33,069 bases of DNA from Pseudomonas sp. JM0905a (lineage in GTDB: Bacteria > Pseudomonadota > Gammaproteobacteria > Pseudomonadales > Pseudomonadaceae): contig NZ_JACXBU010000022.1 in assembly GCF_014700075.1 (NCBI RefSeq), positions 1 through 33,069 on the forward strand, given 5' to 3'. Positions within the stretch are counted from its first letter, which is position 1. Every line of letters begins with the position of its first letter. The notes under the pieces were generated by a model, which had not been told where the DNA came from, did not search any database, and worked only from the letters and a program-made list of their open reading frames with translations. Positions 380 through 28,890 of this stretch are shown here, piece after piece. Both the position numbers and the translations under genes were made by a program.

Positions 380-397
380 CTCGTGATTTGGTAGGGG
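380..397 (-). promoter_or_regulatory. Putative alcohol-regulon operator upstream of pqqA
   Basis: The minus strand reads CCCCTACCAAATCACGAG. It shares CTACCAAAT(C/G)ACGAG with the exaC site at 2151-2168, and the CTACCAA core with the other copies in the window. It lies about 95 bp before the pqqA start. The binder is inferred to be AgmR. Confidence 0.6.
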
Positions 398-408
398 CCG
401 GCCTCCAA

Positions 409-433
409 TCGCGAATGAATTCGCCCCCACAGG
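409..433. repeat. REP-like element, single arm
   Basis: The 14-bp palindrome GCGAATGAATTCGC (411-424) is followed by CCCCACAGG. It is one arm of the dispersed element seen complete at 10331-10370 and 3844-3874. It sits between the exaC terminator and the pqqA operator. Confidence 0.7.
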
Positions 434-483
434 TTTAGCGCCCGGGGTGAGGATGTAGCAGGTAGGTTGGTGCTACATGAAAT

Positions 484-511
484 AAAAAACGCGGCCGGAG
501 CCGCGTTTTTT
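484..511 (-). terminator. Rho-independent terminator after exaC
   Basis: A GC-rich stem (ACGCGGC / GCCGCGT) with a 4-nt loop is flanked by A6 on one side and T6 on the other, 16 bp past the exaC stop. The flanks allow it to work in both directions. Confidence 0.9.
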
Positions 512-527
512 ATTCAGGTGGCAGGGA

Positions 528-2048
<1,521 letters not shown>

Positions 2049-2150
2049 GGCGTTGCTCTCTCTGGTCGGTACCTGCCCGGCTGGGCAAGCTGTGGACCGA
2101 TCTTAGTCAGCCGTCGCCCAGCCCCGGTATGCGCCCATGGAATAGACGCC

Positions 2151-2168
2151 CTCGTCATTTGGTAGTAA
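2151..2168 (-). promoter_or_regulatory. Putative alcohol-regulon operator upstream of exaC
   Basis: The minus strand reads TTACTACCAAATGACGAG, about 102 bp before the exaC start. The left half (TACTACC) matches the consensus perfectly and the right half is degenerate. It sits just past the chemoreceptor stop codon. Confidence 0.7.
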
Positions 2169-2179
2169 TTGGCGGGCGC

Positions 2180-3748
2180 TCAGGCCCGCGCCAGAGCCTT
2201 CTTCGCCGGAGCCGGAGCAGCCGCCTGCTCGGGTCGATAACCCAGGCGCAGTCCGCCCCAGTGCCGCCCCTGAACGATGATCGGCACCGAAAGATCGTGC
2301 ATCAGCTCGCCCGTATCACGGGTGTAGGTCTGCAGCAGCAGCGGTTGCTGGTGGCTGCCGCAGCGCAGGCCGGTGCGGTCGTTGAACATGCGCTTGCTGC
2401 GGCTGCGGGCCATGTCCTGCTCGGGGTCGCCGGTGGGTGCCTGGCTGAAGGCTTTGTTGTGGGTTGGCACATAGCCTTCCTGGGTGCAGGCGATGGCGAA
2501 CACCAGCCCCTCATGCTGCTTGAGCAACGGTTCCTGGATTTCCGGCAGGACCAGGTCGGTGTAGCGATCGAAACGCGAGCTGTATTTCTGCGGGTAGGTG
2601 CCTGGCACCACCTGGAAGCGGCGGTCGAAGAGGTCGTCGAGGCTGACGCGCCCTTCCCGCACATCACGCTCGAAGCGCTCGGCAATCTCGCTCGCACCCT
2701 GCCGGGCCAGGTCGTAGATGCGCTGGTGGTAGTCATCCAACCCTACTTCGGCCAGACGCTCGCTGATGGTTTCGGCCTGCCCTTCCAACTGGCTGGCGGC
2801 GGCGGCCAGGCGGCGGGTCTGTTCGTCGCTCATGCCCAGGTCGCTGCGCATCTGCCCCACCGCCTCGAACAGCCCGGTGAGCTGGTCGCGGTTGGTCCGG
2901 GCGCCACGGGCGATCTCGTCCACCTGCCCTTCCACCGCCGCCGCCAGTCCGGCGATTTTCTCCAACTGGCGGCCGGTCAGTTCCACCTGGCCGACCCCGG
3001 CCTCCAGGTCCGTGGAGAGCTGCTGGATCTGCTCCACCACCAGTGCGGTCTGGCGCTGGATATCGGCCACCATCTGGCCCACTTCACCGGTGGCGCTGGC
3101 CGTGCGTCCGGCCAGGCCGCGCACCTCGTCCGCCACCACGGCGAAACCACGGCCGTGCTCCCCTGCCCGCGCCGCCTCGATAGCGGCGTTCAGCGCCAGC
3201 AGGTTGGTCTGGCTGGCGATGGACTGGATGACCTGGGCCACCTGCTGGATTTCTTCGCTGCGCTGGCTGAGGGTGGCGATCAGCTCGCGGCTGGCGCCGG
3301 CCCTGAGGCTCAGTTGCTGCATGAGTGCGATGGCCTGCTGTAGCACCTCGCGCCCTTCATCGCTGCTCTGGCGCGCGTCAAAGGCGGCGGCGAAGGCCTG
3401 TTGGCTGAGTTCGGACGTGGCGGCCTCGGTGGCGATCATCACCTCGGCGCTGCCGACGATGCGCTCGGCAGCCTGCAACTGGGACTTGAGGCGCTCGGCC
3501 AGGCGATCCACGGACCAGGCGACCCCGGCAGCGGACAAGGCGTTATGGCTGGTGCTGCGGGACAGGTCGCGGGTGAGACGGGCCACGTCGGCGCCCTCTT
3601 CCACCGTTGTCCGCGCCTGGGGCCTCTGGCGGAACAGCCAGGGCAGCGGCAGCAACAGGAGTACCCCCAGCCAGGGCGGCAGGCCCGTAAAGGCCACACC
3701 ACCGGCGATAAAGAAGATCAAGAGGCTGTGGATCAGGCAGTAGCGCAT
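2180..3748 (-). CDS. Methyl-accepting chemotaxis protein with a C-terminal sensory-like domain
   Basis: The 522-residue start (MRYCLIHS) is preferred because GGGACGAG precedes it; an ATG seven codons further upstream has no ribosome site. Two closely spaced membrane segments (about 4-20 and 25-40) leave almost no periplasmic loop, so the protein lacks an external ligand domain. The cytoplasmic signalling hairpin is clear, with the conserved tip [19 protein letters not shown] at about 199-217. A C-terminal extension (about 350-510) carries motifs such as PTHN, RDTGE and HWGGLRLGY. This resembles the C-terminal Cache-like module of some Pseudomonas receptors and is likely the sensor. The gene stands between exaA and exaC with a regulon-type operator 60 bp upstream, which suggests taxis or energy sensing linked to alcohol use. 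The ligand is unknown. Confidence 0.9.
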
Positions 3749-3808
3749 CGCTCGTCCCTTTGTTGTCATTGTTTTCGGGTATTAAGCGGCGAATCGCCAT
3801 CAGGCGAC

Positions 3809-3826
3809 ATGGTTCCTTGGTCGTAG
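3809..3826 (-). promoter_or_regulatory. Putative alcohol-regulon operator upstream of the chemoreceptor
   Basis: The minus strand reads CTACGACCAAGGAACCAT, which matches CTACTACCAAGGAAGTAG at 14 of 18 positions. It lies 60 bp before the chemoreceptor start, nearly the same spacing as the copies before pqqF and the 44-codon gene. Confidence 0.65.
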
Positions 3827-3843
3827 AACGCAAGGTGTAAATC

Positions 3844-3874: not shown

Positions 3875-3884
3875 TTGAATGAAC

Positions 3885-3906: not shown

Positions 3907-3914
3907 GCAGCGCA

Positions 3915-5699
3915 TCAGCGCTTGGCTACGGTTTCTGCCTTCGGCAGCTTGAAGGTCCAGAGCATGCCGCCCTGGTTCAGGTCCTTGATGCGCTTGGCCA
4001 CTTCGCCGCCCCAGAGCGGTACCGCACCACCCCAGCCGGACAGCACGGAAACGTATTGCTCGCCGTCCATTTCCCAGGTGATGGGCGAGCCAATCACGCC
4101 GGAACCGGTGTTGAACTCATAGAGTTTCTTGCCGGTCTTGGCGTCGAAGGCCATCAGGAAGCCTTCGGGGTTGCCGGTGAATACGAGGTTGCCCTTGGTG
4201 GCCAGCACGCCGCCCCAGAGCGGCGCGTAGTTCTTGTAGCGCCAGACTTCCTTGCCGGACTTCGGATCGATGGCGCGCAGCACGCCGATGTAATCCTCGT
4301 TCAGCGGCTTGATGGTGAAGCCCGCGCCCAGGTAGGCCGCGCCTTTCTTGTAGGCGATGTTCTCGTTCCACATGTCCATGCCCCACTCGTTGGAGGGCAC
4401 GTAGAACAGGCCGGTGTCCTGGCTGTAGGCCATGGGCATCCAGTTCTTGCCGCCGAGGAAGGACGGCGCGACGAACACCGAGCTGCCGTGCTTGCCATCG
4501 GCACCCGGCGCACCGGGGCGCTTGGCGTCGTCGTAGATCGGACGGCCTTCCTTGTCCAGACCCTTGGCCCAGGTCACGGTGTCGACGAAGGGGAAACCAC
4601 GGATGAACTTACCGTTGGTGCGGTCCAGCACGTAGAAGAAGCCGTTACGGTCAGCGGTGGCCGCGGCCTTCACGGTCTTGCCGCCGTCCTTGTAGTCGAA
4701 GGACACCAGCTCGTTGACGCCGTCGAAGTCCCAGCCGTCGTGCGGGGTGGTCTGGAAGTGCCACTTGATGGAGCCGTCTTCCGGATTCAGCGCCAGGCGC
4801 GAAGAGGAGTAGAGGTTGTCGCCCGGACGCAGGTGGGAGTTCCACGGGGACGGGTTACCGGTGCCGATCAGCAGGGTGTCGGTATCCGGGTCGTAGTAGC
4901 CGCCCAGCCAGGGCGCGGCGCCGCCGGTCTTCCACAGGTCGCCGGGCCAGGTCTTGCCGGCTTCACCGCCGGAGATGCCGTTCTCGACCTTCTTGCCGTC
5001 CTTGTAGACGTAGCCCATGTGGCCTTCCACGGTCGGACGGCTCCACAGCAGCTCGCCGTTCTTCGGGTTGTAGGCTTCGATCTTGCCCACCACGCCGAAC
5101 TCGCCACCGGCGACGCCGGTGATCAGCTTGCCCTTGACCACCAGCGGTGCGGCGGAGATGGAGTAGCCGGCCTTGTAGTCAGCCACGGTCTTGCGCCAGA
5201 CCACTTTGCCGGTGTCCTTGTTCAGGGCCACCAGCTTGGCGTCGAGGGTGCCGAAGATCACCAGGTCGTCGTACAGGGCCACGCCACGGTTGATCACGTC
5301 ACAGCAGGGCATGATGCCGTCGGGCAGGCGGGCATCGTATTGCCAGAGCTTCTTGCCGGTGCGCGCATCAACGGCGAACACCCGCGAATAGGAGCCGGTG
5401 ACGTACATCACACCATCTTTCACCAGCGGCTGGGCCTGCTGGCCACGCTGCTTCTCGCCGCCGAAGGACAGCGCCCACACCGGGCGCAGCTGCTGCACGT
5501 TGTCGCTGTTGAGGGCCTCCAGGGTGCTGTAGCGCTGGCCTTGCAGGCCCAGGCCGTTGGTCACCACCTGGTCGGTGGATTTGGCGTCATCGAGAATTTC
5601 CTGGTCGGTGACACCGGCCAGGGCAACGCTGCTGGACAGCGCCATGGCGACGCACAGCAGCGTCCGGGCGAAAAGCTGGTTGGGTGTGGCGGGCTTCAT
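3915..5699 (-). CDS. exaA: PQQ-dependent alcohol dehydrogenase, probably lanthanide-type (PedH-like ExaA)
   Basis: This is a 594-residue periplasmic quinoprotein with a signal peptide (about 1-28, ending ALA) and an eight-bladed propeller. It oxidises alcohols and passes electrons through PQQ to cytochrome c550. Visible landmarks are the vicinal disulfide Cys132-Cys133 (PCCDVINRG), Glu200, Asn282 (GTGNPSPWN), catalytic Asp324 and Arg351. The decisive feature is [11 protein letters not shown], which has a second acid, Asp326, two residues after the catalytic Asp. In XoxF and P. putida PedH this extra Asp coordinates the lanthanide, whereas calcium enzymes (MxaF, ExaA of P. aeruginosa, PedE) have Ala or Ser there. 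The length also fits PedH (about 595) better than the longer calcium type. A ribosome site (AGAGGT) supports the start. The symbol exaA is used for the family; pedH would be the closer P. putida name. Confidence 0.95.
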
Positions 5700-5749: not shown

Positions 5750-5809
5750 TCTGCCGCAAATTCTTGGTTCGCCACGTGAGGCCAACAATTGGACGCAGTG
5801 CGGATTTTC

Positions 5810-5827
5810 CTACTCCGTTGGTAGCAA
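5810..5827. promoter_or_regulatory. Putative alcohol-regulon operator between exaA and the AI-2E-type gene
   Basis: Read toward exaA it is TTGCTACCAACGGAGTAG. It lies about 110 bp before the exaA start and about 99 bp before the divergent permease gene, so it could serve one or both promoters. Confidence 0.7.
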
Positions 5828-5926: not shown

Positions 5927-6940
5927 ATGCAAGTCTTCAGTGATCGTCAACTGCTCCTGGCCAGCTGGGCCATCGTTCTCCTCGGCCTGTTGCTGGTACT
6001 GCCCTTCCGGCTCCTGCCTTCCCTGCTGTCAGGGCTACTGGTCTATGAACTGGTCATCACCCTGGCCCCCCGCCTGCAACCGGTGATACCCGGTGGGCGT
6101 CGCGCCCGCTGGCTGGCCGTGGCACTGCTGGGCACACTGGTGGTCAGCTTGCTGTCGCTGTTCTTCGTGTGGATCGCCGGGGTGGTCATGCAGGAAGTGC
6201 ACAACCCCGGCCAATTGCTGGAAAAGTTCATCACCCTCACCGAACAGGCCCGGGCACAGCTGCCGGCGTCCGTCGAGAACTACCTGCCGGCCAGCGCCGA
6301 CGACCTGCGCCGCGAACTCATGGACTGGCTGCGCGCCCACGTCGGCCAGCTGCAGCTGCTGGGCAAGGGGGCGGCGCATACCTTCGTGACCATGCTGATC
6401 GGCATGATTCTCGGCGCCATCATCGCGCTGCAGCCCATCCCCAACTTCGAGACCCTGCGCCCGCTCAGCCGCGTCCTGCTGGAACGCATGGCCCTGCTGG
6501 TCACCGCCTTCCGCAATATCGTCTTCGCACAGATCAAGATTTCACTGGTGAACACCACCCTGACCGGCATTTTCCTTGTCGTGGTGCTGCCGCTGATGGA
6601 CATCCACCTGCCACTGACCAAGGTCCTGATCCTGCTGACCTTCCTCCTTGGCCTACTGCCGGTGATCGGCAACCTGATGTCCAACACCCTCATCTTCATC
6701 GCCGGCTTTTCGGTGTCCCTCTGGGTGGCGGTCGGCGCCCTGGGCTACCTGATCGCCATCCACAAACTGGAATACTTCCTCAACGCCCGCATCGTCGGCG
6801 GCCAGATCAGTGCCAGGGCCTGGGAGCTTTTGCTCGCCATGCTCGCGTTCGAGGCAATCTTCGGCCTGCAGGGGCTGGTGGCGGCGCCGATCTACTACGC
6901 CTACCTGAAGAGCGAGCTGAAGCACGCGGAGCTGGTGTAA
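5927..6940 (+). CDS. AI-2E family transporter-like membrane protein
   Basis: The 337-residue protein is largely hydrophobic. It has two N-terminal membrane segments, then a third near 62-85, a soluble stretch (about 90-145) and a cluster of further segments toward the C-terminus. The pattern and the PIxxFETLRPLSR-like and YFLNARIVGG segments fit the AI-2E exporter family (PF01594, YdiK/PerM group). The substrate is not predictable; some members move quorum signals and others act in Na+/H+ exchange. The ATG at 5927 is used because upstream in-frame codons do not look coding, although its ribosome site is weak. The gene diverges from the alcohol dehydrogenase and shares the 5810-5827 operator region. 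It could export an alcohol-derived product, but that is speculation. Confidence 0.8.
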   Translation: MQVFSDRQLLLASWAIVLLGLLLVLPFRLLPSLLSGLLVYELVITLAPRLQPVIPGGRRARWLAVALLGTLVVSLLSLFFVWIAGVVMQEVHNPGQLLEKFITLTEQARAQLPASVENYLPASADDLRRELMDWLRAHVGQLQLLGKGAAHTFVTMLIGMILGAIIALQPIPNFETLRPLSRVLLERMALLVTAFRNIVFAQIKISLVNTTLTGIFLVVVLPLMDIHLPLTKVLILLTFLLGLLPVIGNLMSNTLIFIAGFSVSLWVAVGALGYLIAIHKLEYFLNARIVGGQISARAWELLLAMLAFEAIFGLQGLVAAPIYYAYLKSELKHAELV

Positions 6941-10019: not shown

Positions 10020-10125
10020 CACGTACATCCTCATTAGCTGTGCAAGGCGGCGCCCCGGTGAGGCGCTGTGAGGAAATGGTAAGAAGCCCCCGATCACACC
10101 CCCATCCTGCTTTGGTGGCCTGGCC

Positions 10126-10143
10126 CTACTTCCTTGGTAGTAG
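10126..10143 (-). promoter_or_regulatory. Best copy of the putative alcohol-regulon operator, upstream of exaB
   Basis: The minus strand reads CTACTACCAAGGAAGTAG, an inverted repeat with 8 of 9 base pairs between the half-sites. It is used here as the reference for the other copies. It lies 106 bp before the exaB start. Confidence 0.8.
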
Positions 10144-10330: not shown

Positions 10331-10370
10331 GTGGGAGCGAATTTATTCGCGAATGAATTCGCCCCCACAG
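10331..10370. repeat. REP-like palindromic element, complete
   Basis: GTGGGAGCGAAT at the left and ATTCGCCCCCACAG at the right bracket a TTCGCGAA centre, making a 40-bp near-perfect inverted repeat. It is the complete form of the element at 409-433, 3844-3874, 10448-10469 and 20908-20935. Confidence 0.85.
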
Positions 10371-10447: not shown

Positions 10448-10469
10448 GCGAATGAATTCGCCCCTACAA
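10448..10469. repeat. REP-like element, single arm
   Basis: GCGAATGAATTCGCCCCTAC followed by AA is one arm of the same element, about 80 bp from the complete copy and just past the end of the 44-codon gene. It could contribute to a transcript end. Confidence 0.65.
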
Positions 10470-10500: not shown

Positions 10501-10635
10501 TCAATCCTTCAGCCAGATGACCGGCAACACCGAGGTACTGCCCTGGGGGTGAATGCCGGAGGGGCTGACGCGGTCGAAGCCGAGCAGGCTGAGGATCAGC
10601 AGCAAAGGCAACAGCAAGTGTTTGAGGATGCGCAT
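10501..10635 (-). CDS. Small membrane or exported peptide, 44 aa, unrecognised
   Basis: This short minus-strand frame begins MRILKHLLLPLLLILSLLGF and ends in SVLPVIWLKD. AAGGAAG lies 6 nt before the ATG. Residues 7-20 form one hydrophobic segment after a basic start, then comes a short polar tail with no Cys, so it is a single-pass or cleaved secreted peptide and not a lipoprotein. It is divergent from the ABC binding-protein gene and shares a near-consensus operator (10694-10711, 58 bp upstream). That spacing matches the chemoreceptor and pqqF copies, which is the main argument that the gene is real. No known family is recognised. It may be a small subunit or chaperone peptide of the quinoprotein or ABC system. 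Confidence 0.6.
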   Translation of the reverse strand: MRILKHLLLPLLLILSLLGFDRVSPSGIHPQGSTSVLPVIWLKD

Positions 10636-10693: not shown

Positions 10694-10711
10694 CTACTAC
10701 CTTGGTACCGC
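10694..10711. promoter_or_regulatory. Putative operator in the divergent peptide/ABC promoter region
   Basis: The plus strand reads CTACTACCTTGGTACCGC, with a perfect left half-site. It lies 76 bp before the binding-protein gene and 58 bp before the 44-codon gene on the other strand. A further GGTACTTTC half-like sequence follows at 10718. Confidence 0.7.
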
Positions 10712-10787
10712 CCGACCGGTACTTTCTTCATATTTCCCAGGCCCGGCCCCATTCCTATGCTGGCTCCACGTTCAGAGGAGCCATGAA

Positions 10788-14536: not shown

Positions 14537-14889
14537 AAAAATATGGCCCTTTGTTAGGGCAGGGTTACAGCGCAAAGCTGCATGCGTCCGTTAGGAATCA
14601 CCGCCAAATCATTAGTCATAAAGGGCCTGACAACGGTCCGAATACCCATTGACGGCATCTTGCCATCAGTCACAGGATGATTCCGTGGGATAGAAAAGGT
14701 GCAATTGCAGGAGGTTCTTCTCTCGACTCTGCGAGGTGTCGCGGCCTTTTTGTGTGAGGTCCGACCAGGTTTCGGTTCGTGTAATCACCTGTAAATGGAG
14801 CACGCTTCAGCTTCCTTTGGCGTAGCTATCGCCGAAGGGGATTTCCTTTTGCTTGGGTTAAAGGGGTCCAAGAACGGGAGGAGGACTGA
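14537..14889. other. 353-bp spacer before the multicopper oxidase operon
   Basis: No coding frame with a ribosome site was found. The stretch is less GC-rich than the genes. It holds a weak hairpin after the ABC permease and, near its right end, a candidate operator at 14808-14825. It probably contains the promoter of the multicopper oxidase operon and a leader. Confidence 0.6.
14808..14825 (+). promoter_or_regulatory. Weak candidate operator before the multicopper oxidase gene
   Basis: The plus strand reads CAGCTTCCTTTGGCGTAG. Its complement, CTACGCCAAAGGAAGCTG, matches the reference at 13 of 18 positions. It lies 64 bp before the start codon, the spacing seen for pqqF and the chemoreceptor. 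A match of this quality alone is expected about twice by chance in a window this size, so position is the main support. Confidence 0.4.
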
Positions 14890-18650: not shown

Positions 18651-18668
18651 CTACTACTTTGGTACAGG
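18651..18668 (+). promoter_or_regulatory. Putative alcohol-regulon operator upstream of the CxxxCW gene and agmR
   Basis: The plus strand reads CTACTACTTTGGTACAGG, 79 bp before the CxxxCW gene. Because agmR follows on the same strand after a 53-bp gap, this site could also give autoregulation. Confidence 0.7.
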
Positions 18669-18747
18669 TTGCCCCCTCTCAACGTCGAATACCCAAAGCA
18701 GCGGCGCTGGCCTGTAATGGATACATAAAAAGAACAGAGCGTCCGCC

Positions 18748-19293
18748 ATGAAACGCCTACTCACCTGCCTCGCCTGCATTGTCCTTGCGCTGCCCGCCTT
18801 CGCCGGCGAGACGGCCGACACCCCGCTGTTCTCCGCCGACGGCTACCGCCTGACGCGCTACCGCAGCCCCACGCCTGCCCACGCCGAAGCCGCCCGAACC
18901 CTGGATACCCCCCAGCTCCAGGCCCAGTTGAAGGCGCAGCCCGACACCCTGCTGGTCGACGTCTACCGCCGCCAGTGGCTGCAGGGGCAATTCATCGAAG
19001 ACGAGCCCCATGCCAACCTGCCCGGCAGTCTCTGGCTGGCCAACACCGGTGACGGCGAACTCAGCGCCCAATGGCAGGACTACTTCAGCCGCAACCTGCA
19101 ACAGGCCAGTGGCGGCCGACACGACCGCGCCCTGGTGTTCTACTGCCGCTCCGACTGCTGGCTCAGCTGGAACGCGGTGAAGCGCGCCGCCGCTCTGGGC
19201 TACACCAACCTCTACTGGTACCGTGACGGCATCGATGCCTGGGAGCAGGCCGGACTGCCCCTGCAGCCCGCCCGCCCCGTGCCCTTCCCCTGA
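18748..19293 (+). CDS. PQQ-dependent catabolism-associated CxxxCW rhodanese-like protein
   Basis: The 181-residue exported protein has a signal peptide (about 1-19, ending AFAG) and a rhodanese-like fold. It carries the defining motif YCRSDCWLSWN, with Cys133, Cys137 and Trp138, followed by KRAAALGYTNLYWYRDGIDAW. This family occurs almost only beside PQQ alcohol dehydrogenase systems. Rhodaneses move sulfur on an active-site Cys, so with the SoxYZ-like carrier and SoxH-like hydrolase it may belong to a thiol relay whose purpose is unknown. The ribosome site is weak. It is followed by agmR on the same strand and has a good operator upstream. Confidence 0.88.
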   Translation: MKRLLTCLACIVLALPAFAGETADTPLFSADGYRLTRYRSPTPAHAEAARTLDTPQLQAQLKAQPDTLLVDVYRRQWLQGQFIEDEPHANLPGSLWLANTGDGELSAQWQDYFSRNLQQASGGRHDRALVFYCRSDCWLSWNAVKRAAALGYTNLYWYRDGIDAWEQAGLPLQPARPVPFP

Positions 19294-19346
19294 TCCGGCG
19301 TGTCCGGATAAGCCGCACCATAATGAGAAAAACGAGGTGAAAGGCC

Positions 19347-20009
19347 GTGTACAAGATTCTGATTGCCGATGACCACCCACTGTTCCGCGAAGCCATCCAT
19401 AACGTCATCAGCGACGGCTTCCCGGAAAGCGAAGTGATGGAGACCGCCGACCTGGACAGTGCCCTGGCGCTGACCCACGAGCACGACGACCTCGACCTGA
19501 TCCTGCTGGACCTGAACATGCCCGGCATGCACGGCCTGAACGGGCTGATCAACCTGCGCAATGAGGCGCCGACAGTGCCGGTGGTGATCGTCTCCGCCGA
19601 GCAGGACAAGCAGGTTGTGCTGCAGGCCATCACCTACGGCGCGGTGGGCTTCATCACCAAGTCCTCGCCGCGGGCACAGATGACCGATGCCATCGAGCAG
19701 ATACTCAACGGCAACGTCTACCTGCCGTCGGACATCATCCGCACCCAGAAGGCCTCGCCGCGCCGCCACCACGAAGAAGCCAGCATCCCGCCCGAGCTGT
19801 TGCAGGCCCTGACCCGCAAGCAGCTGCTGGTGCTGGAGCGGATGACCAAGGGCGAATCCAACAAGCAGATCGCCTACAACCTGGACATCGCCGAAACCAC
19901 GGTGAAGGCCCATGTCTCGGCCATCCTGCGCAAGCTCAACGTGCACAACCGGGTGCAGGCCATTCTCTCGGCCAGCGATATCGACTTCACTGCTTACCTG
20001 CGTCGCTGA
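19347..20009 (+). CDS. agmR: LuxR/NarL-family response regulator AgmR (ErbR/PedR1/ErdR type)
   Basis: The 220-residue protein starts with GTG ([17 protein letters not shown]) behind GAGGTG. The receiver domain (1-120) has Asp8-Asp9, phospho-acceptor Asp55 ([10 protein letters not shown]) and Lys105. The LuxR-type helix-turn-helix is at about 155-210 ([25 protein letters not shown]). It closely resembles P. aeruginosa AgmR/ErbR and P. putida PedR1/ErdR, known activators of alcohol oxidation genes. NarL-family dimers bind inverted repeats, so this is the best candidate to bind the 18-bp palindrome found throughout the window. Its likely partner is the soluble hybrid kinase encoded at 21004-23574. 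Confidence 0.93.
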
Positions 20010-20037
20010 CCATCCGGGTACTTCCCTAAGGACGACC

Positions 20038-20895
20038 ATGCCTGCCGCCCGCACGCTGCTGTTCACGGCCCTGGCCATGCTGGCCTTCGCCGGCAATTCC
20101 CTGCTCTGCCGACTCGCCCTCAAGCACACCGACATAGACGCGGTGAGCTTCACCGCTATCCGCATCGCCTCCGGCGCCCTGATGCTCTGGCTGCTGCTGC
20201 GCCTGCGCCGTCAGCCCCTGGCCGCCACCGGCAACTGGCGCGCGGCCGCGGCGCTGTTCGTCTACGCCGCCGCGTTCTCCTACGCCTACCTGCAACTGGA
20301 CGCCGGCGCCGGGGCGCTGCTGCTGTTCGGCGCGGTGCAGCTGTGCATGGTGGTCTTCGGCCTTGTGCGCGGTGAACGCCTGAACCTGCAACAGGCCCTG
20401 GGCTTCGCCCTGGCGACCGGGGGACTGGTGGTCCTGCTGCTGCCCGGTGCCAGCGCACCGCCGCTGGTGGGCGGCCTGCTGATGCTGCTCGCGGGCCTCG
20501 CCTGGGGCGCCTACACCCTGCTCGGACGCCAGGCTGGCCTGCCGCTGGCGGCCACCGCCGGCAACTTCATCCGCGCCCTGCCCTTCGCCGCGCTACTCAT
20601 GCTGCCCTTCATCGACCAGCTGCGCCTCGACCTGCCGGGATTCATCTACGCCGTGCTTTCCGGCGCCCTGACCTCCGGCATCGGCTACGCCATCTGGTAC
20701 AGCGCCCTCCCCGGCCTCGGTGCCCTCCAGGCCGCCAGCGTGCAACTGAGCGTCCCGGTCCTTGCAGCCCTTGGCGGCGCCCTGCTGCTGGGCGAACACA
20801 TCAGCCTGCGCCTGGCGCTGGTTTCAGTAGCCGTGCTTGGCGGCATCGCCCTTGTGCTGCGGGCGAAGTTCCAGGCGGTGCCGCAGCGGGCTTGA
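20038..20895 (+). CDS. EamA/DMT-family permease
   Basis: The 285-residue protein has ten predicted membrane segments arranged as two five-helix EamA halves; the second half includes LLMLLAGLAWGAYTLLGRQ and SVQLSVPVLAALGGALLLGE, both typical of the family. DMT permeases usually export metabolites or amino acids, and the substrate cannot be predicted. The gene lies 28 bp after agmR with TAAGGACG before the ATG, so it is probably co-transcribed. A permease in the same place follows the agmR homologue in P. aeruginosa. REP-like sequence follows the stop. Confidence 0.88.
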   Translation: MPAARTLLFTALAMLAFAGNSLLCRLALKHTDIDAVSFTAIRIASGALMLWLLLRLRRQPLAATGNWRAAAALFVYAAAFSYAYLQLDAGAGALLLFGAVQLCMVVFGLVRGERLNLQQALGFALATGGLVVLLLPGASAPPLVGGLLMLLAGLAWGAYTLLGRQAGLPLAATAGNFIRALPFAALLMLPFIDQLRLDLPGFIYAVLSGALTSGIGYAIWYSALPGLGALQAASVQLSVPVLAALGGALLLGEHISLRLALVSVAVLGGIALVLRAKFQAVPQRA

Positions 20896-20907
20896 TACAC
20901 GCTTCTC

Positions 20908-20999
20908 TGTGGGGGCCGAATAAGTTCGCCCCTACAAAAAAGCGCGTCGTCCTGTAGCTAACAATGGCGTCGGTTGCCTTCCCTGTAGGGGCAATTGGC
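20908..20999. repeat. Degenerate REP-like elements between convergent genes
   Basis: A degraded element (GTGGGGGCCGAA...TTCGCCCCTAC, 20908-20935) and a second half (CCTGTAGGGGCAATTGGCG, 20982-20999) fill the space between the convergent permease and kinase genes. No other terminator was seen, so these may act as the transcript ends. Confidence 0.6.
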
Positions 21000-21003
21000 G
21001 CCT

Positions 21004-23574
21004 TCACCGCTCCAACAAATGACTCATCGCCGTCTTCAGCTTCATCGGCCGCACCGGTTTGTGCATCAGGGTGTGGCCGAGTTCGCGCATCTGCTGTTTG
21101 AGCTCGTTGCTGTAGTTGGCGGTGATCATCAAGGCCGGGAGCGGTGTGCTGCGGCGGGCGTTAATGGTGGCGACGGCGTCGACGCCGTTGCAGCCGTTGT
21201 CCAGGTGGTAGTCGGCGATCAGCAGGTCGGCGTCGGCGTGGAAGTTCTCCACCTGGCGTGCCAGGTCTTCTTCCGAGAGCGCGGTGGTGACCTGGCAGCC
21301 CCAGCCTTCCAGCAGGGTACGCATGCCCGCGCAGATGGCGGCGTCATTGTCCAGCACCCAGATCCGCGCGCCGTTGAGCCGCTCCAGGACCGCCTCGGGC
21401 TCACTGCGTTCCGGTTTCTGCCGGGGCACGCGCCGAGCGAGCGGCACTTCCACCGCGAACAGCGAGCCCTTACCCAGTTCCGAGGACACATGGATGCGAT
21501 GACCGAGCATGCGCGCGATTTTCTCGACAATGGCGAGGCCCAGGCCGAGCCCGCGGTCCTGCTTCTCGCGTACCACCTCCCCGCGTTTGAACTCCTGGAA
21601 AATCTCCCCGAGCTTGTCCCGGGGGATGCCGACTCCGGTATCGCGGACCTCGATCCACAGGCTCTGCCGTCGACGACGGCAGCCCAGCAGGATGCGGCCT
21701 TGCGGCGTGTAGCGGATGGCGTTGCTGAGCAGGTTGCGGAGGATGCGCGCCAGCAGTTGCAGGTCGCTGCGTACCAGGGCCGAGCTGGGGACGAAGTCCA
21801 GCTGCAGGCCTTCGCTGGTGGCGATCTGGCGATATTCCACGGCCAGGTTGTCGAGCAGTTCGCCGACGGCGAAGGACGCGATATCCGGCTTGATCACCCC
21901 GGCATCCAGTTTGGAGATGTCCACCAGGGTTCCCAGCAGGTTCTCCACGTCTTCCAGCGAGTTGCTGACATTGCGCACCAGGGCCAGGTTGCAGGTCTGG
22001 CTGCGCTGTTCCAGTAGCGCACTGGTGAACAGCCGTGCGGCGTTGAGTGGTTGCAGCAGGTCATGGCTGACCGCCGCGAGGAACTTGGTCTTGGACAGGT
22101 TGGCCTTCTCCGCCTCGAACTTGGCTTCACGCAGGCGCAGTTCCATCTGCGCGCGCTCGTCGATTTCGCGACGCAGCTGGCTATTGAGTGCGGTGAGTTC
22201 GGTGGTGCGCTCACGCACCCGTTGTTCGAGGTTCTGGTAGGCCTGGTGGAGAGCCTCAGCAGTGCGACGGCGCTCAGTGATGTCGCGGATCAGCACGAAG
22301 ATGCCGACCACCTCGCCGTTGGCCAGGCGATTGGGCACATAGGAGCGCAGCATGCAGCGCTCCTGGCCGTTGTGGTTGGTTTCCGTGACTTCGAAGGACA
22401 GGCTTTCACCATTCAGCGCCCGCTCCACGTAAGGCTCCAGGCGCAGCCAGTGTTCTTCACTGTGCACCTCGCGCAGGCTCTGGCCGAGCATCGAGCCACG
22501 CGGCCAGCGGTACCACTCCTCATAGACCTTGTTGGTGAATTCGTAGACCAGGTCGGCGCTCAGGTAGGCGATCAGCGCCGGAACATGGTCGGTGATCAGG
22601 CGAATCCAGCGCTCGCTCTCGGCCAGTGCCTCGGCATGGCGATAGCGTTCGGTGATGTCGGTGAACGTGTTGACGAAGCCGCCGGTGGGCAACGGATGGG
22701 TGCGCACCTCCAGCACGCGGCCGTTGTATAGGCGCTGCTCCATCTCGCGAACGGGACGGCCGTTGGCGTCGCGGGTGTCCGGGGTGAGCAGCGGCAGTTC
22801 GCTGTCGGCCATGACGCTGGCGAAGCTGCGGTGCGCTTCCACCGGGGCCAGCCCGCAGAGTTCGAGGAAGCGGTGGTTCCACAGCTCCAGGATGCCCTCG
22901 GCGCTGACCATGGCCACGCCCTGGGACAGGTTGTCGACGGCGCGCTGCAACAGGCGCGACTTCTGCGCGATCGCCTGTTCGCGGCGGGCGGTTTCGCTCT
23001 GCTTCACTTCGGTGATGTCGGTATAGAGGATCACCAGCCCGCCCTCGCGGGTGGGCCGTTCGCTGACCTGCACCCAGCGGCCGTCATGCAGCCGGTAGAG
23101 GACGTTGTCGTCGCTTCCTCGATGCTCTTCGACGATCAGGCCGGTGCTGTCTGCCAGGCGACGGATCTCCGAAAGCCGGGTACCGGCGCCGATGCGCGCA
23201 CGGGTGCGGGCCCAGAAGGATTTGAAGCGGCTGTTGAAGAGGACGATGCGCTGGTCACGGTCGAACAGCACGAAGGCGTCGGAGATGCTTTCGATGGCGT
23301 CGATCAGGTGCTGATGGGCAGTCTCCGCCCGCAGCCTGGCGTCACTCAGCAAGCGGTTGCTGGCCTTGAGTTCGGCCATGGCCTGGTTCAGCGCATCGGT
23401 GCGCTCGCGTACCTGCTCGGCCAACACCACCGAATGCTGGAAGGCGGCATAGCTGTCATCGCGACGGGAAGCGCTGGACTCGACCCGCTCGATCAGGGCC
23501 GCATTGATGCGGCGCAGCTTGCAGTTCTCTTCCTCCAGCGCAGCCAGCCGCGCCTGCTGTTCAGCGGCATCCAT
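21004..23574 (-). CDS. Soluble PAS hybrid histidine kinase (ErcS'/PedS1-like)
   Basis: The 856-residue protein has no membrane segment. An N-terminal coiled coil (about 5-75) is followed by three PAS regions (about 83-190, 206-311 and 321-436), a second coiled coil, a HisKA domain with His504 (FLAAVSHDLLQPLNAAR), and an ATPase domain (NAIRYTP, DTGVGIP, GLGLGLAI). A C-terminal receiver follows, with acceptor Asp788 (LLIADYHLDNG) and Lys near 839 (HKPVRP). The start at 23574 overlaps the FIST stop by 14 nt and keeps the coiled coil; a longer frame to 23631 is possible. Related kinases control ethanol oxidation in P. aeruginosa. With AgmR next door it likely senses an internal redox or aldehyde signal. 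How the signal passes from the receiver to AgmR, perhaps via a separate Hpt protein, is not visible. Confidence 0.92.
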   Translation of the reverse strand: MDAAEQQARLAALEEENCKLRRINAALIERVESSASRRDDSYAAFQHSVVLAEQVRERTDALNQAMAELKASNRLLSDARLRAETAHQHLIDAIESISDAFVLFDRDQRIVLFNSRFKSFWARTRARIGAGTRLSEIRRLADSTGLIVEEHRGSDDNVLYRLHDGRWVQVSERPTREGGLVILYTDITEVKQSETARREQAIAQKSRLLQRAVDNLSQGVAMVSAEGILELWNHRFLELCGLAPVEAHRSFASVMADSELPLLTPDTRDANGRPVREMEQRLYNGRVLEVRTHPLPTGGFVNTFTDITERYRHAEALAESERWIRLITDHVPALIAYLSADLVYEFTNKVYEEWYRWPRGSMLGQSLREVHSEEHWLRLEPYVERALNGESLSFEVTETNHNGQERCMLRSYVPNRLANGEVVGIFVLIRDITERRRTAEALHQAYQNLEQRVRERTTELTALNSQLRREIDERAQMELRLREAKFEAEKANLSKTKFLAAVSHDLLQPLNAARLFTSALLEQRSQTCNLALVRNVSNSLEDVENLLGTLVDISKLDAGVIKPDIASFAVGELLDNLAVEYRQIATSEGLQLDFVPSSALVRSDLQLLARILRNLLSNAIRYTPQGRILLGCRRRRQSLWIEVRDTGVGIPRDKLGEIFQEFKRGEVVREKQDRGLGLGLAIVEKIARMLGHRIHVSSELGKGSLFAVEVPLARRVPRQKPERSEPEAVLERLNGARIWVLDNDAAICAGMRTLLEGWGCQVTTALSEEDLARQVENFHADADLLIADYHLDNGCNGVDAVATINARRSTPLPALMITANYSNELKQQMRELGHTLMHKPVRPMKLKTAMSHLLER

Positions 23575-24727
23575 TGCGCCCCCGGCGGCCGATGGCAACT
23601 CCGGTGAAGGTCTGGTTGATGTGCATGCCATTGAACTGCTCTCCGTAGGAGTTGAAGCCGATGACCCGCTGTCCGCGCAGGATTTCAGAGGTGCGCGTCA
23701 CCGCGTCCGCGTCGTTCTCGATTTCCAGCCGACGCAGGAAGCAGTCGCAGCCGATGGTCAGCAGGGGCGGGCCAAGCCGCTCGCCAAGACGCCGAAACAG
23801 CGCCTCCAGGTTGGGTAGCAAGGGGCCGGTGCGCATGGCGGTGAGGACGATGCCGTTCTCCACTGCGCAGTAGAAGGTCAGGCTGAGGTCCGGGTTGACC
23901 CGCTGGATGGAGCGCACGTAGTACGAATCCCCTAGTCGCACCGCCAGTGGATGCGCAGCGAACATGCGCAAGTCGAGGGCGCTGAGCGGAACGCCGACCA
24001 TCCGTGCATAGACTTCCGCAGCTGGCTCGGCATTGAGCTCGAAGACCCGTCGGCTGGCGTTGTCGGCCCGGGTGACCACCAGCTTTTCCGTACCCGGCAG
24101 GATGTGGTGGGTGCTGAACACCTCGAAATCCAGTGCCGTGTTCACTAGCACCACCACCGCCGCGCCTGCATGGAAGCGCCCTTCGTAGTAGACGTGGGTG
24201 TGCTTGAGGTGATGGTCGTCGGCCGCCGAACCGCCGAAATGCGGGATGCTGCCAAAGGCCGCGCCAAGTGCCGCGAGCACCACTTCCTCACGGCTGGACA
24301 GACCATCCAGCAGGGTCAGGGCGAAGCTGTGGCCCTTGATCGGCGCCAGGGAGTTGGCCCGGCAGTCCTGCACCAGGCGCTCCACCAATTGCTGGGCGTC
24401 GATCAGGCCGAAGCGGTCCATCTCGTCCACCAGCGCGCTGGCGATGGAAAAGCTGCGATGGTCGAAACCCACCGCGCTGACACAATTGCGGCCATAGCCC
24501 AGGGGCGTGATTTCGCCAGCGCTGGTGCAACCCACCAGCCGCACGCCGCCGAAATACTGCTCCAGGGCCTGGCCGAGTGCGTCGAGGTCGTATTCTGCCG
24601 AGCAGAAGAACAGCACGAAGCCCAGGTGCGGGTGGATAAGCTGGCGCGCCAGGTCCTGGGCCACGGCCTCCGCCTCGCTGGCCAGGGACATGGCGGTGAC
24701 GACGCCCTCTGCCGGTTCTTCGAGCAT
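23561..24727 (-). CDS. FIST-domain sensory protein
   Basis: The 388-residue protein has a FIST N-terminal domain (about 25-205, with LVGCTSAGEI and IPHFGGSAADD) and a FIST C-terminal domain (about 210-370, ending GFNSYGEQFNG). FIST proteins are intracellular sensors thought to bind small ligands and act with kinases or chemoreceptors. The start at 24727 is chosen because GAGG lies 6 nt upstream; a GTG four codons further out would contain that site. It overlaps the hybrid kinase by 14 nt, so the two are translationally coupled, and the FIST protein probably supplies the input for the kinase. The same pairing occurs beside agmR in P. aeruginosa. Confidence 0.9.
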   Translation of the reverse strand: MLEEPAEGVVTAMSLASEAEAVAQDLARQLIHPHLGFVLFFCSAEYDLDALGQALEQYFGGVRLVGCTSAGEITPLGYGRNCVSAVGFDHRSFSIASALVDEMDRFGLIDAQQLVERLVQDCRANSLAPIKGHSFALTLLDGLSSREEVVLAALGAAFGSIPHFGGSAADDHHLKHTHVYYEGRFHAGAAVVVLVNTALDFEVFSTHHILPGTEKLVVTRADNASRRVFELNAEPAAEVYARMVGVPLSALDLRMFAAHPLAVRLGDSYYVRSIQRVNPDLSLTFYCAVENGIVLTAMRTGPLLPNLEALFRRLGERLGPPLLTIGCDCFLRRLEIENDADAVTRTSEILRGQRVIGFNSYGEQFNGMHINQTFTGVAIGRRGRNGCR

Positions 24728-24793
24728 CCTCGGCCTCACTCAATAAGCCTGTTCGCGATGTGGAAATTCTACGGAGGGGGTCCGGAACGCCCC

Positions 24794-24811
24794 ATCCTTC
24801 TTGGGTAGCGG
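24794..24811 (-). promoter_or_regulatory. Weak candidate operator upstream of the FIST-kinase operon
   Basis: The minus strand reads CCGCTACCCAAGAAGGAT, which matches the reference at 12 of 18 positions and keeps CTACC. It lies 66 bp before the FIST start. It is suggestive by position but not significant alone. Confidence 0.35.
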
Positions 24812-24869
24812 AGGACTAGTTCGAAGGTAGGGGCTCGCAGATGCACACCAACACAATGTGTTTCTGAAA

Positions 24870-26108: not shown

Positions 26109-26303
26109 GACGCTCTCCGCTGTGGGTAGACGACCGGGCAGGTCAGTCGAGTCGGAGGCGATTATCGAAACGCCATCAGGTCTTCCATACGCTGCATTGG
26201 CGGGGGTTTCGTCCTGCTTTGGCCGGGTTTTGCAAGCCGCGCCGGGAAGGCTTAATACCGGGCTCGTCCAAGGTCTTAACCCGACGGACGGTCGAGCAGC
26301 ACG

Positions 26304-26333
26304 AAAGGACGCAGCCCTTTCGGGCTCGTCCTT
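26304..26333 (-). terminator. Probable terminator after pqqF
   Basis: A two-part stem, GGACG plus AGCCC pairing with GGGCT plus CGTCC with one bulged base, is capped by a 4-nt loop (26307-26330). On the minus strand it is followed by TTTCGTG, so the T-tract is short. It lies 26 bp past the pqqF stop. Confidence 0.55.
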
Positions 26334-26356
26334 CAGCACAGGAATGGAGGGGGAAA

Positions 26357-28813
26357 TCAGTACGAGAGGTGCCAGGCCGGCACAGGGGGTTCGGCATTGG
26401 CCAGGGCAAGGCAGGTCGTCCCTGCGATCAGGCAGTCGAGCTGCTCTTGCAGGTGACCGGGTTGCAGCTCGGTCAATGCCTGGTGCACACGCGAGCAATG
26501 GTCGACCGGCAGGCCGGCCAAGTGATCAAGCCAGCATTGGCGAGCGTAGCTGGCGAATACCGTGTTTTCCCGGACCAGCCGCTGGGTGAGACTCAATCGC
26601 AGATCATCCAGTTGTGCCTGGTCCAGCACCGCCAGACGCTCGCTTTGACGTTGGAGGAAGTCCTGGAGGTGCGCGAACAACCCGGCCACGGATTCACGCG
26701 GCGACTGCACGGCGAACAGCAGGCCACGGTGCGGCCCGAACTGCTTGAAACCACAGGCCAGCGCGTAGCCCAGTTGCAGCTCGCCCCTCAGGCGCTGGTG
26801 AAAGGCCGGCTCCAGCAGACTGGCCAGAAGCCGCGCAGATGCCTCCGCCGCGGCGCTGGCTGGATCGAGTGGATAGAAGAGCAGCAGTGCCGCTTCACCC
26901 TCCATCTCCAGCCGATGCCAGGTACGTCCGCCCTGCCCGGCCAACACGCTGGGTGTGGCAGGCAGGCCCGGCAGTTCGGCGTCCACCACCACATCACCCA
27001 CGACCAGGCCCTGCCGGCGTGCCTGGCACCACAAGTGCGCCAGGGCTTCAGCCTTGAGCACTGCCGGCGCCTCCGTGGCCGCTGCAAGCAAGCCCGGCAG
27101 ATGTTGCAGCATCTGGCGCAAGGGCAGCTCGCCGGCATTGCGACGCGTCGCACTTCGCTGCAAGCGCGGCCCCTGGGCAAGGCTCCAGAGCGGCGGGGCC
27201 TGCAGCAGCGGCAGCACATCGCGGCTCACGTGACGTAGCACGCGGACATCGCCCAGCAGCTCAAGCGTAATCCCGCCCTGCTCCGCCTTGAGCCCCCCTG
27301 TCACGCCAGCCCCGGCGGCGCCCCCCAGAATGGGGCGCAACGCCCGTTGCAGGGCTGGGACGAGCCCATGGGGCACCCCGCTGTCCGCGGGTTGCCAGTG
27401 CAGGAACAGCGCACCCTGGCCGCTAGCCTCGGGTAAGCCGGGTCTGGCGGGCAATTGCGTATGAGTCGCCGCCAAAGGCGCCGACGGGATCAGATAAGGG
27501 TTGGGCGGCGGCAGTCGCCAGTTACAATCGGATGTTCTGCCGGAGCCATCCTCGAGCCGCTCCAGGTTCAGGGGAAAGCCGGCCGAAACGTCGTTACTTG
27601 CGCAATCGGAATCATCGACCTGGAGATGGATCAGGCATTCGACTCGCAATTGTTCAAGCAGCGCCTGGACTTCCTCACGGGTCGGAAGCCGGGGCGCCAT
27701 CGCGACATCCAGCGGCGCCAGTTCGGCGTGGCGTTGGCGCAGACGCTGCAGCCGCTCCTCCCAGAGGCCCGGCCAGGGTGCGGTAGCGCGCAGGAAGTCC
27801 AGCCAACCCAGAACCTCCGCCTCCAGTTGCACACAGTCCGCGTCTTCCACCCGCTCGAAGTCCATCACCAGCAGGCCTTGCCCGCCATCGGCGCAAGACA
27901 GGCGCAAGTGCACGCCGTCACTCAATTCAAGGACGCCGAGGCGCTCTTGCAGGCCGCCGGCTGAGTCGTCCTGGACCAGACACTCCAGAAAGGCCGTGGA
28001 CGCCTCCAGAGCATCGCCTTGTTGCGCCACGGCGAACGCCAGCAGGAGACGTCCGCCTCCGCCTGGCACACCAAGCCGAAGCCGTTTCGCACGAAGCGGC
28101 AGCATGGGCGGCACGACCGGCTCCGGCAAACCTCTGCCCGCCTGTAATGGCTCGCCGTAGCGCCGGGCCAGCTCCAGCTGTTGCTCCAGCGGGTGCGGCG
28201 AAATCAGGGTCAGGCACATGCGGCCCGGCTGGTAATGGTCCCGATGGAAGCGATGGAGCGCAGGCATGAATGCGGGGGATTCCAGCTTCAGACTGGCTGC
28301 GTTGCCCGCATGAAAATCCGCCAGCGGGTGACCGTCCGCGAGGGCCGATGCCAGCGCGGCGTCGCAGAGGGTCCGGCAGTCCCGCGCGCGGGCACTGAAC
28401 TCGGCTTGCAGCACCTCCCGCTCACGCCAGATCGCAGCCGTTTCCAGCAAGGGATTGGCCAGCATGTCCAGAAGCCGCGCCAGGGCCTGATCGAGGTGCG
28501 CCGCCGGCACCTCGCAGAAGAAGCGCGTGCTGCGTGGGCGGGTACTCGCATTGACCCGACCACCGAGGCCCTGGACGAATGGAATCAGGCCCTGTTCCGG
28601 GGGAAATTCGCGGCTACCCAGGAACACCAAGTGCTCAAGAAAGTGGGCCAGCCCGGGATAGTCGCCGGGTTCGTCGTGGCTTCCGTCGCGAACCTCCACC
28701 AGCACCGCGCAGAGCGTCGTGCCAGGCCGATGCAGCAGGCGCACTTCCAGGCCGTTGGCCAGGTGAGTGGTCAGTGACGGCTGCTGTTCGGACGACTCGA
28801 CAAGGCTGGACAT
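26357..28813 (-). CDS. pqqF: PqqF, M16 zinc protease of PQQ biosynthesis
   Basis: The 818-residue protein belongs to the pitrilysin (M16) family. The inverted zinc motif HFLEH is at about 58-62 (GLAHFLEHLVFLGS), with the downstream Glu-containing EREVLQAEFSARARD segment. The context GGRVNASTRPRSTRFFCEVP matches PqqF, which cleaves crosslinked PqqA. The C-terminal half is a diverged inactive M16 repeat. The start at 28813 (MSSLVESS) is chosen because homologues begin just before the LANGLEV strand and because a putative operator lies at 28873-28890. The ATG at 28903, with AGGACG before it, would put that operator inside the gene. The ribosome site at 28813 is poor. The gene is 26 kb from pqqA, yet seems tied to it by the shared operator. 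Confidence 0.88.
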   Translation of the reverse strand: MSSLVESSEQQPSLTTHLANGLEVRLLHRPGTTLCAVLVEVRDGSHDEPGDYPGLAHFLEHLVFLGSREFPPEQGLIPFVQGLGGRVNASTRPRSTRFFCEVPAAHLDQALARLLDMLANPLLETAAIWREREVLQAEFSARARDCRTLCDAALASALADGHPLADFHAGNAASLKLESPAFMPALHRFHRDHYQPGRMCLTLISPHPLEQQLELARRYGEPLQAGRGLPEPVVPPMLPLRAKRLRLGVPGGGGRLLLAFAVAQQGDALEASTAFLECLVQDDSAGGLQERLGVLELSDGVHLRLSCADGGQGLLVMDFERVEDADCVQLEAEVLGWLDFLRATAPWPGLWEERLQRLRQRHAELAPLDVAMAPRLPTREEVQALLEQLRVECLIHLQVDDSDCASNDVSAGFPLNLERLEDGSGRTSDCNWRLPPPNPYLIPSAPLAATHTQLPARPGLPEASGQGALFLHWQPADSGVPHGLVPALQRALRPILGGAAGAGVTGGLKAEQGGITLELLGDVRVLRHVSRDVLPLLQAPPLWSLAQGPRLQRSATRRNAGELPLRQMLQHLPGLLAAATEAPAVLKAEALAHLWCQARRQGLVVGDVVVDAELPGLPATPSVLAGQGGRTWHRLEMEGEAALLLFYPLDPASAAAEASARLLASLLEPAFHQRLRGELQLGYALACGFKQFGPHRGLLFAVQSPRESVAGLFAHLQDFLQRQSERLAVLDQAQLDDLRLSLTQRLVRENTVFASYARQCWLDHLAGLPVDHCSRVHQALTELQPGHLQEQLDCLIAGTTCLALANAEPPVPAWHLSY

Positions 28814-28872
28814 GGCGCATCGGAAAAGGGAGGAACCTGATTCTAGATTCCTGGCCACCTTCTGAGCTAGCA

Positions 28873-28890
28873 ATGCTTCCTTGGAACTAT
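28873..28890 (-). promoter_or_regulatory. Putative alcohol-regulon operator upstream of pqqF
   Basis: The minus strand reads ATAGTTCCAAGGAAGCAT, which matches the reference at 13 of 18 positions with an intact CCAAGGAAG. It lies 59 bp before the preferred pqqF start, like the chemoreceptor copy (60 bp). Confidence 0.6.

Follow-up and report, generated by a model that had tools for sequence, protein, structure and literature searches.

A palindrome before the alcohol and PQQ genes of a Pseudomonas locus as a candidate operator of the response regulator AgmR

In a 33,069-nucleotide stretch of DNA from Pseudomonas sp. JM0905a (the window, which we placed on contig 14 of the 5.79-megabase (Mb) draft genome), genes for alcohol oxidation lie together with genes for pyrroloquinoline quinone (PQQ), and the locus raises the question of whether one regulator controls them all and through which DNA site it might do so. 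An initial annotation, made from the letters alone, had proposed that an imperfect 18-base-pair (bp) palindrome occurs before ten of these genes and operons and marks a single regulon of the NarL-type response regulator AgmR. We find that comparative evidence favours a single alcohol and PQQ regulon marked by an inverted repeat, with a NarL-type regulator, most likely AgmR, as its binder. Comparison of sequences makes it very likely that the palindrome is an operator of AgmR. The copies noticed at the outset are, however, mainly the distal halves of a two-site operator, whose weaker second site lies 22–23 bp downstream.

AgmR has been known since 1991, is described as an activator of the ped and pqq genes, and counts as a central regulator of alcohol and PQQ metabolism in Pseudomonas (PMC12997753; this and the other papers are cited from excerpts). 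Its regulon is already published; the site and the two-site layout are newly proposed here. No DNA site for AgmR was found in the open literature searched, which was represented by excerpts; subscription papers and supplements lie outside that scope and may describe one.

Conservation of the palindrome

The ten copies are all present in the DNA where the initial annotation had placed them, and nine of them hold up as a family in that they are kept in relatives. The tenth, before a multicopper oxidase gene (14808), is not kept and we have rejected it; of six aligned genomes, only G000 and the closely related G015 have it (genomes, contigs and loci carry handles in G, C and L). A search for the exact 18-mer with up to three mismatches finds it once in the window and once in the genome, which is too strict to be informative, and the copies are therefore a degenerate family. 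Six of them (at 380, 2151, 5810, 10126, 10694 and 18651) share the + strand pattern CTMSTNNNTTGGTA, which has seven matches genome-wide, six of them in the window, the pattern itself being derived from those six. TACCAA occurs eight times in the window, seven of them outside a hand-made gene list that spans 84% of it. The repeat has two arms around a 2-bp centre, CTACTTCC-TT-GGTAGTAG at 10126 and in relatives, in which the inner TACC/GGTA bases are the most conserved and the outer triplet varies. The distances to start codons, originally given as 58–110 bp, come to 59–110 bp for eight sites when the start of the chemoreceptor gene is put at 3748; with a start at 3769 its distance is 39 bp.

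The expectation that orthologous promoters conserve the palindrome is borne out. A matrix was built from the six window sites and used to scan 300 bp upstream of orthologous genes in a genus sample of 18 genomes, that is the window's own and 17 held-out species, with a threshold of 14 bits at the spacing seen in the window. In the held-out species, 78 of 81 orthologous promoters carry a site of at least 14 bits at a nearly fixed distance from the start, the window's own six promoters being excluded from this count (pqqA 12/13, exaC 13/14, exaA 13/14, pedF 15/15, pedA1 12/12, CXXCW 13/13). The three misses are exaC of G005, a doubtful pqqA hit of the same genome, and a PedE-type paralogue in G004; the pqqA hit is probably false, since G005 has no pqqB match. 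Promoters with an unaligned start codon were left out (three of exaA, two of pedF, three of pedA1 and three of CXXCW). The top score among 666 composition-shuffled upstream stretches was 14.7; these shuffles preserve base composition only, and those of loci, used below, preserve dinucleotides.

Matches to CTMSTNNNTTGGTA in the 17 held-out species concentrate around this cluster, as had been anticipated for a matrix carried into related genomes: 73 of 123 fall within 30 kilobases (kb) of agmR, where 1.17 would be expected if they were uniform. In these species a reversed control pattern is matched 146 times and the real one 123 times, so it is the placement of the pattern near agmR that is raised and not its total number. 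Outside the genus, at loci whose agmR is 75–95% identical to that of the window, at least one site of at least 14 bits is present in 53 of 56, mostly before the same genes. Sixty loci from other genera (these 56 and four others) hold 168 matches of at least 14 bits, as compared with 7–12 in five dinucleotide shuffles. Among the best 80 of 483 relatives' named agmR loci, at least two sites are found in 75 and at least one in all 80, although some of these loci overlap genomes counted in the 56-locus set or in the genus; those with at least two include Pseudomonas aeruginosa PA7, P. citronellolis, S. stutzeri KOS6 and P. putida GM4FR.

Other repeats were met in the same scans. G014 has 15 copies of the 14-mer CTACTTGATTGGTA, spread over 15 contigs, which make up 15 of that genome's 23 pattern matches; the 14-mer probably lies inside a mobile repeat. 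Outside the ped cluster, relatives have recurrent copies of a motif like the palindrome (CTACTAATTTGGTA or CTACTAAATTGGTA), which is probably the site of another factor; at the two loci examined (L026, 1501–1514, and L113, 3053–3066) it lies about 60 bp before the gene for a 194-amino-acid protein that we presume to be NfuA from its appearance.

A second site and the −10 hexamer

When promoters are aligned on the palindrome, a second conserved block is seen downstream. We scored the same matrix at 88 offsets per promoter, and offset 22 ranks first at exaC, pedF and CXXCW, second at pedA1 and fourth at exaA; at pqqA it is offset 23 that ranks first, with offset 22 in 32nd place. The mean score over the six promoters peaks at offset 22, a peak reached by one of 20,000 circular shifts, and the second-site scores are 8.8 at pedF, 8.6 at pqqA (at 23), 2.2 at exaC, −0.4 at pedA1, −1.9 at exaA and −2.4 at CXXCW. 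A −10-like hexamer, scored with base frequencies of −10 hexamers, starts 62–63 bp from the first base of the distal site when the six promoters are taken together. That offset is the best at exaA, exaC and pedF, ties for best at CXXCW, and is second at pqqA and third at pedA1; with the six pooled and one base of slack allowed, none of 20,000 circular shifts reaches the observed mean. The FIST promoter, which was used in neither shift test, fits the same layout, with a distal site at 24816, the annotated copy at 24794 exactly 22 bp on (scores of 14.3 and 11.7), and TAGAAT at offset 62. Given that a −10 hexamer begins about 12 bp before the transcription start, the proximal site would be centred near −43 and the distal site near −65. 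As for the three spacing classes described at the outset, the group near 60 bp is explained as proximal-type sites (chemoreceptor, FIST and probably pqqF), the others being distal.

The strong pqqA site is the distal one in the window's genus and the proximal one in many other lineages. We lean towards the view that the Pseudomonadaceae alcohol and PQQ regulon follows one promoter grammar, in which two helically phased candidate AgmR operators stand 22–23 bp apart with the −10 hexamer at a set distance, operator strengths swap between lineages while the spacing is held, and selection works on the pair, as would be needed for two dimers to bind cooperatively.

AgmR and its rivals as binder

The candidate binder is encoded by agmR (ErbR/PedR1; 19347–20009, + strand), a NarL-type response regulator gene identified through domain and structure matches and through matches in genomes of the family. 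AgmR aligns with the NarL structure 1a04 over residues 4–206, most of its length (E 6e-26), NarL being its best solved match by E-value, and its recognition helix, which we take to be the one that reads DNA, has TVKaHV where NarL has TVKvHV. Its gene stands beside the CXXCW gene and pedS1-like and nosP-like genes (window 18748–24739). NarL heptamers have the consensus TACYNMT, and the palindrome, to judge from its letters, appears to work like a NarL-type operator without being a NarL site.

At pqqA the palindrome moves with agmR, as the initial annotation had predicted of it. Of 119 genomes of the family, agmR is matched at E 1e-75 or better in 72 (at most 25 candidates per genome were scored) and pqqB is present in 90. 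We compared the pqqA promoters of 22 agmR-less genomes, which span five genera, with 55 copies from 54 agmR-containing genomes outside the window's genus, leaving out the agmR-less G059 and G111 (contig edge) and the agmR-containing G039. A single-site threshold of at least 12 bits did not separate the two groups significantly (18/55 versus 3/22, Fisher p 0.16), because many lineages hold the strong site in the proximal position and in a variant form; a rank test on the same single-site scores gave p 8e-5. A pair score, devised after that simpler threshold test had failed and computed with a matrix built without pqqA, has medians of 15.1 in the 55 copies and −4.6 in the 22 agmR-less genomes (area under the curve 0.965, p 1e-10, phylogeny uncorrected), and reaches at least 10 in 43 of the former and one of the latter. 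G045 provides an internal control, in that its pqqA in the ped cluster (C139, L171) has a pair score of 16.9 and its other pqqA (C43, L205) one of −0.4.

Three NarL-type candidates were compared, namely AgmR, ErdR and ExaE/PedR2. ErdR/CrbR, the acetate regulator and AgmR's closest paralogue family, has a motif (ACTU) that shares the TACTACC half, and ACTU sites such as TACTACCATCGTCGAAT and TACTACCAAAGTCTAAT resemble one arm of the palindrome (PMC5715377, excerpt). ErdR is also the top NCBIfam model for AgmR, at 189.6 bits and thus under the model's 390-bit cut-off; the chemoreceptor site at 3809 has the ACTU-like arm GGTCGTAG, and published ACTU matches include a chemoreceptor gene. In addition, G122, which lacks agmR, still has a pqqA pair, and a report on P. 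aeruginosa places agmR and ercS under ErdR control, although the ErdR targets mapped in that species excluded both genes (PMC9927353, in the excerpted text for each statement). Yet a paralogue of AgmR at 43–46%, with nothing closer on full rescoring, is present in 22 of 22 agmR-less genomes and is ErdR-like (the three tested, together with the window genome's, pass the ErdR cut-off at 432.6–448.6 bits), and 21 of those 22 have no pqqA pair, so the pair does not follow the presence of ErdR alone. Moreover, the arms end in GGTA and not GGTC at the six main window sites, which precede alcohol and PQQ genes, and 3809 is the only listed site with a GTC arm. We therefore regard ErdR/CrbR as an improbable owner of these sites as a set. 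ExaE/PedR2, the local partner of PedS2 and a reported controller of exaA and pedE, is still less probable, to a degree that leaves it hardly any room: control of exaA by ExaDE (EraSR) is published in P. aeruginosa (PMC4686015, excerpt), which is a point against AgmR, and so is induction of pedE by PedR2 in P. putida (PMC13390443, excerpt), but ExaE orthologues (80% or more) are present in six of 14 genomes examined and absent in eight, including the window's (best hits 35–40%), and the exaA site is kept in seven of seven ExaE-less genomes checked (all of the eight but G025). The presence of ExaE instead tracks that of a PedE-type dehydrogenase, in 13 of 14 genomes; only G005 departs from this, having ExaE while lacking any dehydrogenase match at E 1e-100. 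The helix of ExaE, moreover, is TVSNYL and not TVKaHV. Barring an unrecognised ExaE, it is refuted as sole binder in the window genome, and we have rejected it as the binder. Eight genomes (G000, G010, G036, G108, G068, G040, G115 and G025) have neither a PedE-type dehydrogenase nor ExaE/PedR2 and, of the two enzymes, only the PedH type.

Two further explanations concern the site itself. A chance likeness of AT-containing promoter sequence in a GC-rich genome could be argued from the reversed control, which outnumbers the real pattern, but the sites are conserved in position, clustered and spaced, and we give chance next to no credence. It is a more substantial, if unlikely, proposition that the palindrome is a real AgmR operator and that the element 22 bp away is another factor's site or core promoter (the −35 region), with one dimer per promoter. 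The poor average proximal scores at exaA, CXXCW and pedA1 are what this would lead one to expect; on the other side stand the first rank of offset 22 at exaC, pedF and CXXCW and of offset 23 at pqqA, the two good sites of FIST, and the many lineages in which the proximal pqqA site is the stronger. AgmR, acting through paired operators, remains the reading that we prefer, and several results count against it or against its generality. For the pairing, these are the same three poor proximal scores, the ranks of offset 22 at exaA and pqqA, the less than outright best −10 offsets at pqqA, CXXCW and pedA1, a pqqF −10 hexamer that misfits the expected offset (score 1.2 at offset 40), and a pqqA layout that is not uniform, in that the best pair in G115, G121, G056 and G026 takes the recognisable pqqA site as distal. 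For AgmR, they are that the outer TAC of the NarL heptamer is not the best-conserved part of the palindrome, the inner TACC/GGTA being so instead; that three of the 56 agmR loci (L155, L159 and L167) have no site at 14 bits; that 12 of the 55 copies from agmR-containing genomes have pqqA pair scores below 10 (G023, G027, G034, the second copy of G045, G049, G056, G070, G084, G088, G091, G115 and G121); that G122, which is one contig, retains a pqqA pair of 15.1 with its distal half decayed (1.0); and that G009 retains two sites despite an agmR that matches in two pieces with a stop. Kinship among genomes, finally, inflates every count. We note of G009 that the agmR in question (C1, 341375–342036) may be broken, or may reflect a sequencing error, and that the intact sites are those of pedF and CXXCW.

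Promoters of the window and comparison with known systems

AgmR is the best candidate binder of the sites on sequence grounds, and from relatives we infer that it controls the exa/ped and pqq operons in this organism. In the mechanism that we propose, the sensing of alcohol would lead to phosphorylation and dimerisation of AgmR, and the dimer would bind the inverted repeat through the arms CTACTnCC and GGTAGTAG around the 2-bp centre. Two operators 22–23 bp apart, about two helical turns, would place two dimers on one face of the DNA, the strong distal site near −65 and the weaker proximal one near −43, just upstream of the −10 hexamer; the dimer on the strong distal site would assist a second one in occupying the weak proximal site, and the proximal dimer would touch or recruit RNA polymerase and so activate transcription. 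The two-operator set would comprise pqqA, exaC, exaA (PedH type), pedF, pedA1A2BC, FIST and the CXXCW-agmR operon, the last giving positive feedback, and a single proximal-type site would serve the chemoreceptor gene and probably pqqF. GGTA against GGTC, mainly one base per arm, could keep AgmR and ErdR apart.

The products of the window genes were named with NCBIfam and Pfam as ExaC (acetaldehyde dehydrogenase), a PQQ alcohol dehydrogenase, SoxH-like and SoxYZ-like quinoprotein-associated proteins, cytochrome c550 PedF, a PQQ-system ABC binding protein (PedA1), a CXXCW protein, a FIST protein, a porin and PqqF domains. The alcohol dehydrogenase (exaA, 3915–5699) matches 6zcv, which we take to be PedH of P. 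putida, at 1151.6 bits and 1flg (ExaA) at 691.8 bits, and shares with 6zcv a 12-residue stretch containing WDFD, presumably the metal motif of PedH-type dehydrogenases. By these matches its product is of the PedH type and not the ExaA/PedE type, and since it is closest to 6zcv and far from 1flg the enzyme is probably lanthanide-dependent.

At pqqA, whose true start in the window is 284, the distal operator CTCGTGATTTGGTAGGGG (380–397) is present in 13 of 14 aligned genomes including the window's, the miss being G005 with its lack of pqqB, and the proximal operator ATGGTACTTTCGGAGGAG (357–374) lies 23 bp away with a −10-like TTAACT at 329–334. An intergenic repeat, GCGAATGAATTCGCCCC(C/T)ACA, occurs at 411–431, 10349–10369 and 10448–10468, one copy being just past the pqqA operator. 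The exaC distal operator (2151–2168; 14 of 15 aligned genomes including the window's, 101–105 bp from the start) is paired with a weak proximal one (2129–2146) and a −10-like TAAGAT at 2100–2105, offset 63. The chemoreceptor gene has a single operator in the proximal position (3809–3826), with a −10-like CTTAAT at 3781–3786 (offset 40); the 18-mer is the same, letter for letter, in 11 of 13 aligned genomes including the window's, has one change in G016 and is absent from G013. Because one arm of this site is like the ErdR/CrbR motif, AgmR may not be its sole reader, and ErdR may act there. The distal operator of the PedH-type exaA (5810–5827; 14 of 15 aligned genomes including the window's, 109–110 bp) also faces a + strand gene at 5927, and its weak proximal element (5788–5805) precedes a −10-like AAGAAT at 5760–5765. 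The pedF operon has the best palindrome as its distal operator (10126–10143; 16 of 16 aligned genomes including the window's, 106–112 bp), with the proximal operator ATCCTGCTTTGGTGGCCT at 10104–10121 and a −10-like TACCAT at 10076–10081. The distal operator of pedA1A2BC (10694–10711) is present in 13 of 13 aligned genomes including the window's, with a proximal element at 10716–10733 and a −10-like TATGCT at 10756–10761 (offset 62). It lies in a divergent promoter, the operator region being shared with an open reading frame for a 44-amino-acid hydrophobic peptide (MRILKHLLL...; 10501–10635, − strand).

The CXXCW-agmR operon has a distal operator at 18651–18668 (14 of 14 aligned genomes including the window's, 79 bp from the start), a very weak proximal element at 18673–18690 and a −10-like TGTAAT at 18713–18718. 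Loci L152–L154, which have no CXXCW gene, keep a site 119 bp before agmR, which supports the autoregulation of agmR that these sites suggest. At the nosP-like FIST gene, whose candidate start codons are 24739, 24727 and 24691, the copy that had been called weak (24794–24811) never shows more than one change across the 14 aligned genomes and proves to have a partner 22 bp away, the distal operator CTAGTTCGAAGGTAGGGG (24816–24833), which is new with respect to the initial annotation; this distal block is visible in the genus alignment and is more altered in G008, G009 and G017, and TAGAA of the −10-like TAGAAT (24766–24771) is kept in all 14. The FIST operator agrees with the ErbR-2 iModulon of P. 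aeruginosa, since that iModulon spans PA1975 (nosP) to PA1990 (PMC9023270, excerpt). The weak pqqF operator (28873–28890) is of the proximal class; nine of 14 aligned genomes keep its core CCAAAGnAGCATTG exactly, and one or two changes are seen in the remaining five, the window's among them. Elsewhere in the window there are weak matrix matches at 29424 (13.0), 14598 (12.4) and 23804 (11.0). That at 14598 is not kept in relatives; that at 29424–29441 (CTTACAACTTGGTACTAA, − strand) follows a small gene with no Pfam hit.

A defined site and layout would let direct targets of AgmR be told from indirect ones and make a known but unmapped regulon directly testable. The layout bears on the question of any need for ExaE at a PedH-type exaA, and supplies a rule by which alcohol-responsive promoters could be designed; the sites suggest that AgmR feeds back on itself, and that the close paralogues AgmR and ErdR may split their targets by about one base per arm.

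In P. aeruginosa and P. putida, the AgmR/ErbR/PedR1 regulon shares its regulator and most of its genes (ped/exa, pqq, agmR and nosP-like, as far as the excerpted papers describe them) with the regulon described here, which differs in that the window genome encodes a PedH-type enzyme and lacks an orthologue of PedR2/ExaE. With the ACTU motif of CrbR/ErdR in P. fluorescens, the closest paralogue family, the palindrome has in common an imperfect inverted repeat with TACTACC and, at acs, a position (−52 to −36; PMC5715377, excerpt) like that of the proximal site in the window; it differs in that ACTU arms have GTC where the window sites have GTA, and in that ACTU serves acetate genes, with one site reported at the acs promoter in the excerpted text. 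The sites of NarL consist of an inverted repeat around a 2-bp centre, and from a pair of them, at −44.5 and −77.5, NarL activates ogt (PMC7419079, excerpt). The 7-2-7 operators of NarL in Escherichia coli, with their tandem ogt sites, have the two-arm inverted repeat, the 2-bp centre, the tandem use and a proximal site near −44 in common with the sites described here. The window sites, however, stand 22–23 bp apart where those at ogt stand 33 apart, conserve the inner TACC/GGTA, and are used across a carbon-oxidation regulon. The two-site layout is, in this sense, a regulon-wide variation on NarL-type activation.

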